64,000 nucleotides of DNA, taken from contig NC_014011.1 of NCBI RefSeq assembly GCF_000025885.1, positions 1 to 64,000 of the forward strand, in the 5' to 3' direction. The position numbers and the translations under genes were made by a program. Position 1 is the first letter of the stretch. Each line of letters starts with the position of its first letter. This stretch comes from Aminobacterium colombiense DSM 12261. GTDB taxonomy: Bacteria > Synergistota > Synergistia > Synergistales > Aminobacteriaceae. Shown piece by piece: positions 43,699 to 44,598 of this stretch. The notes beneath the pieces were generated by a model that was not told where the DNA came from, did no database searches, and saw only the letters and a list, made by a program, of their open reading frames with translations.

Positions 43699-43727
43699 TT
43701 GACCATGTATTCTTGTGTGGGTTAGAT
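43699..43727 (+). promoter_or_regulatory. Probable promoter of the selenoprotein msrA gene
   Basis: TTGACC (43699-43704) and TTAGAT (43722-43727) are separated by 17 bases, about 95 bases before the msrA start and pointing to it. Confidence 0.55.
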
Positions 43728-43821
43728 ATACGAAGTTTTTTAGTGTATCATAATAAAAATAGGGATGTGGGGTAAGATTAAAAAGATAAAGTGATGTTTG
43801 GCATTAAAGAGAGGGCAAGGA

Positions 43822-44598
43822 ATGTGGAAACGAAGAGAATGTCTTTTTAACGGTATGACCATCATTGTCATAGGGGTGTTCCTTGCTATTTACCCGGGTA
43901 TTATTTTTGCCGAAGAATCTAATATGGAAAAGGAGATGGCATTTATGGAAAATATCCTTCCCGCCATAGATAGCGTAGAGCATAAAAGAACTGAATTAGC
44001 GACCTTTGCCCTTGGCTGATTTTGGGGGCCAGACGCCCAGTTCGGGCTTCTTTCAGGTGTTATCAGTACAAAAGTAGGGTATACCGGAGGGGACAGGCCA
44101 GATCCCACTTATCATACGTTAGGGAATCATACGGAAAGCATTCAAGTCGTATATGATCCGGATGTTATTTCTTACGAGGACCTTTTAGAGGTCTTTACAG
44201 AAGGACATGACCCCACGCTTCCTATCTTTTCGCGGCAATATATGTCTGCCATCTTCTATGAGAACGAAGAGCAGAAGGCAGGGGCTGAGGGCTGGAAAGA
44301 ACATTTGCAGCAAGAAACAGGCCGTCCAGTGCGAACGCAAATCCTCCCTCTTGAAACATTTTATCTGGCTGAGGCCTATCATCAGAAATACTGGTTGCGT
44401 ATGGACAGCGCTTTTTTCCAGGAATATAAGAAGATCTATCCTTCTCTGGACAAACTTTTGCAGTCTACGGCCGTTGCAAGGGTTAACGGATACCTTGGCG
44501 GCTACGGTACCCTAAAAGAGCTTGAGGCGGAACTCCTCCTCCTTGGTCTTTCTGAGGAAGGACAAAGGAGACTTAGAAACATTGTTTTTAGCCGTTAA
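43822..44598 (+). CDS. msrA: Exported selenocysteine-containing peptide methionine sulfoxide reductase MsrA
   Basis: MsrA reduces methionine-S-sulfoxide in oxidised proteins. The frame is interrupted by one TGA at 44017-44019, exactly where the catalytic cysteine lies: LATFALG-TGA-FWGPDAQF matches the family GCFWG motif. After it the frame stays intact to 44598 with GYTGG, YHTLGNHTESIQVVYDP, GHDPT, RQYMSAIFY and FYLAEAYHQKYW, all MsrA hallmarks. Read as Sec (residue 66) the protein is 258 aa. A signal peptide (cleavage after residue 30, IFA) suggests export. The mature part has no cysteine, so there is no resolving Cys. ATG 43822 follows AGAGAGG by 7 bases. A SECIS-like hairpin follows the TGA. 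A nonsense mutation would not be expected at this codon. Confidence 0.88.
44031..44051 (+). promoter_or_regulatory. Bacterial SECIS-like hairpin downstream of the msrA UGA codon
   Basis: AGA-C-GCCC (44031-44038) pairs with GGGC-T-TCT (44044-44051), leaving a five-base loop AGTTC that contains the G-U pair needed by SelB. The loop G lies 20 bases after the TGA, within the range of about 16-37 bases known for bacterial SECIS elements. The element lies inside the coding sequence, as usual in bacteria. Confidence 0.7.

Follow-up and report, generated by a model that had tools for sequence, protein, structure and literature searches.

A selenocysteine MsrA of known type in Aminobacterium colombiense, probably an exported and dual-start variant

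A locus of Aminobacterium colombiense DSM 12261 raises two questions: by what means an enzyme that has one selenocysteine (Sec) and lacks a resolving cysteine could be re-reduced when outside the cytoplasm, and whether the product of one MsrA gene is sent to two compartments in bacteria other than Neisseria. The stretch of DNA analysed here (the window; positions 1 to 64,000 of contig NC_014011.1, 64,000 nucleotides) carries an msrA gene at 43822..44598; all features of the window described below lie on the + strand unless stated otherwise. Sec-MsrA has to date been characterised as a cytosolic clostridial enzyme, and our literature search for an exported Sec-MsrA found no report. We conclude that the A. 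colombiense protein is a real selenoprotein of known type, and probably an exported and dual-start variant of it.

The msrA frame, defined by open reading frame, Pfam matches and homologues, runs from an ATG at 43822 to a TAA ending at 44598 and encodes a 258-aa precursor whose sole in-frame TGA (44017..44019) is residue 66. Translation and homologue alignment place this codon at the catalytic position, opposite the catalytic Cys/Sec16 of the enzyme from C. (Alkaliphilus) oremlandii (CoMsrA), just where the preliminary description of this DNA had put it. The same description considered the family sequence intact on both sides of the TGA, and it is: the catalytic domain (PF01625, residues 60-194, 43999..44403) matches PMSR with E=5.6e-41, and the active-site residues listed for CoMsrA (Y47, E55, Q89, Y90, H137, Y140) are all kept. 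Further downstream, Pfam places a C-terminal helical domain of Sec-MsrA at 44455..44556 (PF20939 'Selenoprotein MsrA, helical domain', E=3.9e-7), with support from an AlphaFold model. For the mature chain, this model reaches a pLDDT of 96 and a TM of 0.91 to 4lwj. The closest solved structures all represent the C. oremlandii enzyme in one form or another, and identity to it across the full mature chain is ~45-46%. The translation contains no Cys beyond residue 7, as first reported; but the missing resolving Cys, thought unusual at the time, is normal for 1-Cys Sec-MsrA, being absent from CoMsrA, and in 48 of 80 Sec homologues the sequence past the Sec is likewise free of Cys.

TGA occupies the catalytic codon in all 26 Synergistales homologues, the close relatives compared, and readable homologues from other genomes have TGA in 56 and Cys in 23 of 79 cases. 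Because the same codon is TGA in so many homologues (26/26 and 56/79), chance or decay can be dismissed as its source. Cys versions of the helical-domain MsrA were seen in haloarchaea and Halanaerobium (L098, L107, L113, L115, L118, L119; L073, L089), and L073 and L089 bear signal peptides. A search for the Sec machinery, proposed earlier as a check, recovered selA, selB, selD and selC (tRNA-Sec) from the A. colombiense genome, which measures 1,980,592 bases in strain ALA-1T (PMC3035294). The SelD gene itself (C1:1095498-1096433) has an in-frame TGA and looks like a further selenoprotein gene, as does that of a peroxiredoxin (TFVU; C1:1653859-1654257). For the congener Aminobacterium sp. MB27-C1, 13 selenoprotein genes have already been listed (PMC12013277).

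A putative SECIS-type hairpin, GCCC-AGUUC-GGGC (44035..44047), begins 15 nt past the UGA, within the region where a SECIS had been anticipated. Its 4-bp stem and 5-nt loop (AGUUC, starting 19 nt past the UGA, its second position a G) have an energy of -13.3 kcal/mol and fit the published bacterial SECIS model (PMC13188914). At least three of the four pairs form in 72/80 Sec homologues versus 0/10 Cys homologues. The codons that contribute to the stem are locked, with CGG used for 22/23 Arg versus 21% elsewhere in those genes and GGG for 25/26 Gly versus 28%, and the outermost pair is G-C in 27 genes and U-A in another 27. The single-sequence fold energy of the hairpin was no better than that of shuffles (z -0.33), RNAalifold on the homologue alignment favoured a different fold, and a search of Rfam, which covers bacterial SECIS poorly, gave no meaningful match. 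The predicted SECIS assignment is thus one that rests on conservation, not on folding energy. A decayed pseudogene or a sequencing error at 44017, which the single in-frame stop and a genome paper that counts 38 pseudogenes with selenocysteine unmentioned (PMC3035294) might suggest, is vanishingly improbable and is ruled out by the identical TGA in every close homologue, a hairpin kept only alongside TGA, and a complete Sec machinery. By comparative sequence evidence, the A. colombiense MsrA is almost certainly a genuine selenoprotein of the CoMsrA (1-Cys, helical-domain) type.

We consider its location next. The N-terminal segment MWKRRECLFNGMTIIVIGVFLAIYPGIIFA (43822..43911) resembles a signal peptide by hydropathy and inspection, with KRR followed by a hydrophobic stretch and a plausible cleavage site after A30, between IIFA and EE. 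The signal peptide of the preliminary description stays plausible on these two grounds, and it is common to most Sec relatives of the order, an equivalent segment being found by hydropathy in 20/26 Synergistales Sec homologues; what had been overlooked is a second ATG, at 43945, with an equally good Shine-Dalgarno sequence. Upstream of the long, signal-bearing frame lie a Shine-Dalgarno sequence, AGAGGG (43810..43815; anti-SD duplex of -8.3 kcal/mol for ATG 43822), and a promoter-like site (TAGATA-17-TATCAT, 43723..43751; 9/12 in a consensus scan only) within a leader block common to the sister species. On the opposite strand, a perfect TTGACA-17-TATAAT promoter (window 43693-43665, -) stands ahead of divergent amino-acid ABC transporter genes (43590-40599).

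Under a hydropathy rule, about 49 of the 80 Sec homologues, drawn from many phyla, have a signal-like segment or a lipobox with an upstream start, and lipoboxes occur in several of them (L075, L083, L082, L066). Cytosolic types occur in five f2 genomes and in the sister species L025 (G031). In L025, whose protein is 69% identical, the msrA leader is retained and the signal segment is missing; between this species and A. colombiense the enzyme has apparently switched compartment inside one genus. At least one form of the A. colombiense MsrA is very probably exported, judging from its predicted N-terminus and those of its relatives. From this survey, anaerobes may commonly carry Sec-MsrA in exported and lipoprotein versions, and perhaps in dual-start versions as well.

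The second ATG, at 43945, would yield a predicted cytosolic form of 217 aa without a signal peptide (43945..44598). It is preceded by its own Shine-Dalgarno sequence, AAGGAG (43930..43935), at a spacing of 9 nt that matches the two congeneric start sites, and its anti-SD energy of -8.7 kcal/mol is close to the -8.3 of ATG 43822; the intervening ATGs range from -1.0 to -3.3 kcal/mol. Defining an internal site as an ATG with a Shine-Dalgarno of at least 5 nt downstream of the signal peptide, we found one in 21 of 49 signal-bearing Sec genes, A. colombiense included. Synonymous shuffles expect 9.4 +/- 2.1 and none of 1000 reached 21; this test was run on the same, mutually related sequences in which the pattern was first spotted and is not an independent replication, and part of the Shine-Dalgarno excess stems from K/E/G-rich linkers, with which the shuffles already yield 9.4. 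Control exported ORFs of the same loci have an internal site in 1/70 (Fisher 5e-9). The signal is present in both halves of the data (Synergistales 8/20, others 13/29) and persists among representatives at 65% identity, and the internal starts have better anti-SD energies than mature-chain Met codons of the same genes (p=0.0004). The dual label is spread across lineages, as it requires 11 changes on a quick tree. Production of an exported and a cytosolic form from the one A. colombiense msrA gene is, from these sequence patterns, about an even call, and identity, export and dual start held jointly are likewise finely balanced.

Two readings of the locus would do with a single product. In the first, only the start at 43822 is used, the enzyme functions in the envelope alone and the internal ATG is idle. 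We regard this as a real possibility, somewhat short of probable. The favourable Shine-Dalgarno sequence at 43822 fits it, and only the signal-bearing start is present in the congener L026 and in the g2/g8 genera; the enrichment of internal ATG/Shine-Dalgarno sites at this spot across lineages and the sister species, which retained only a cytosolic start, argue against it. With L026 lacking the internal ATG and L025 the signal peptide, neither form can be essential. In the second reading, which we judge improbable, the true start is ATG 43945, the upstream segment is decayed or unused, and the enzyme is recycled by glutaredoxin as CoMsrA is. The sister species starts in this cytosolic manner, with AAAGGAGG, the five f2 genomes are cytosolic too, and the A. 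colombiense genome encodes a cytosolic CPWC glutaredoxin. Against this, the hydrophobic segment upstream is open; it has KRR before it, a plausible cleavage site at its end and a Shine-Dalgarno sequence of its own, and its counterparts recur in most Synergistales Sec homologues.

If the exported and dual-start reading holds, the reductant of each form has to be considered. To say that an unknown partner "must" recycle the enzyme in the periplasm was too strong, given a possible cytosolic form and a candidate Sec-thioredoxin/CcdA pair. The sole DsbD_TM protein gene of the genome (C1:1652541-1653242) encodes Cys in SPC and GPC motifs, and directly upstream of it is a thioredoxin gene whose product has an N-terminal hydrophobic (membrane) segment and Sec in a UPAC motif. 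The UPAC Sec-thioredoxin and CcdA/DsbD-type genes form an apparent operon (C1:1652115-1653242, about L141:3612-4739), so that CcdA/DsbD and an exported-type thioredoxin are both present as a predicted pair. The best NCBIfam score of the CcdA-like member is to the arsenical permease ArsG, below the cut-off, and a literature search for ArsEFG selenoproteins returned nothing useful. No linkage of msrA to thioredoxin/CcdA genes was found in any msrA flank examined. In 12 of the 20 Synergistota genomes with an exported Sec-MsrA, thioredoxin and CcdA genes lie side by side; the pair is also seen in genomes that lack Sec-MsrA, and in family f10 genomes with an exported Sec-MsrA the Sec-thioredoxin/CcdA pair is absent or weak. 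The reductant of CoMsrA, an enzyme with no Cys, is glutaredoxin rather than thioredoxin (PMC4333827, PMC4479559). A thioredoxin-like partner is for this reason uncertain. The UPAC Sec-thioredoxin is accordingly put forward as a tentative candidate partner of the exported MsrA.

We hypothesize that the long product, initiated at ATG 43822, would be exported by means of its signal peptide and repair Met-S-sulfoxide in envelope proteins, and that the second initiation at ATG 43945 would supply the signal-less cytosolic form. In both compartments, Sec66 would attack the sulfoxide and be converted to selenenic acid. Because MsrA has no resolving Cys, an outside thiol or selenol would be needed to reduce the selenenic acid. 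The CPWC glutaredoxin may serve the cytosolic form, as for CoMsrA, and the membrane-anchored UPAC Sec-thioredoxin, itself reduced through the adjacent CcdA/DsbD-type protein, may serve the exported form. The full scheme, in which a phylum-spanning Sec-MsrA family with two starts places a one-Sec, no-Cys enzyme on either side of the membrane, with Aminobacterium adding a Sec-to-Sec envelope relay of UPAC thioredoxin and CcdA, is speculative and on balance unlikely to hold in its entirety.

Compared with known systems, the location is the new part; having Sec, a C-terminal helical domain and no cysteine is already known for the CoMsrA type. CoMsrA (PDB 4lwj, 4u66) shares with the A. colombiense protein the Sec in GUFWG, the lack of any other Cys, the helical domain and the active-site residues, but has no signal peptide, its Sec being residue 16, and a dual start has not been reported for it. 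The PilB protein of Neisseria (MsrA/B) offers a likeness for the two locations of an Msr from one gene, which for A. colombiense msrA are deduced from sequence: the short form of the N. meningitidis protein, made from an internal AUG, was demonstrated in E. coli, and DsbD supplies the electrons (PMC6210582), while in later work on N. gonorrhoeae the short form was not observed (PMC6372556). PilB differs in being a Cys protein of three domains, one of them an N-terminal thioredoxin domain. For the electron supply to the predicted exported MsrA, the S. pneumoniae relay of CcdA, the surface thioredoxin Etrx and the exported MsrAB2 (PMC3914529) provides a model; its members are Cys proteins with genes partly in one operon, whereas in A. 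colombiense the thioredoxin carries Sec and msrA has no linkage to the pair. Tandem use of Sec has a precedent in C. oremlandii, where, according to work cited in PMC4479559, a Sec-glutaredoxin recycles Sec-MsrA. There the Sec redoxin is a cytosolic glutaredoxin, whereas the A. colombiense candidate is a membrane-anchored Sec-thioredoxin.
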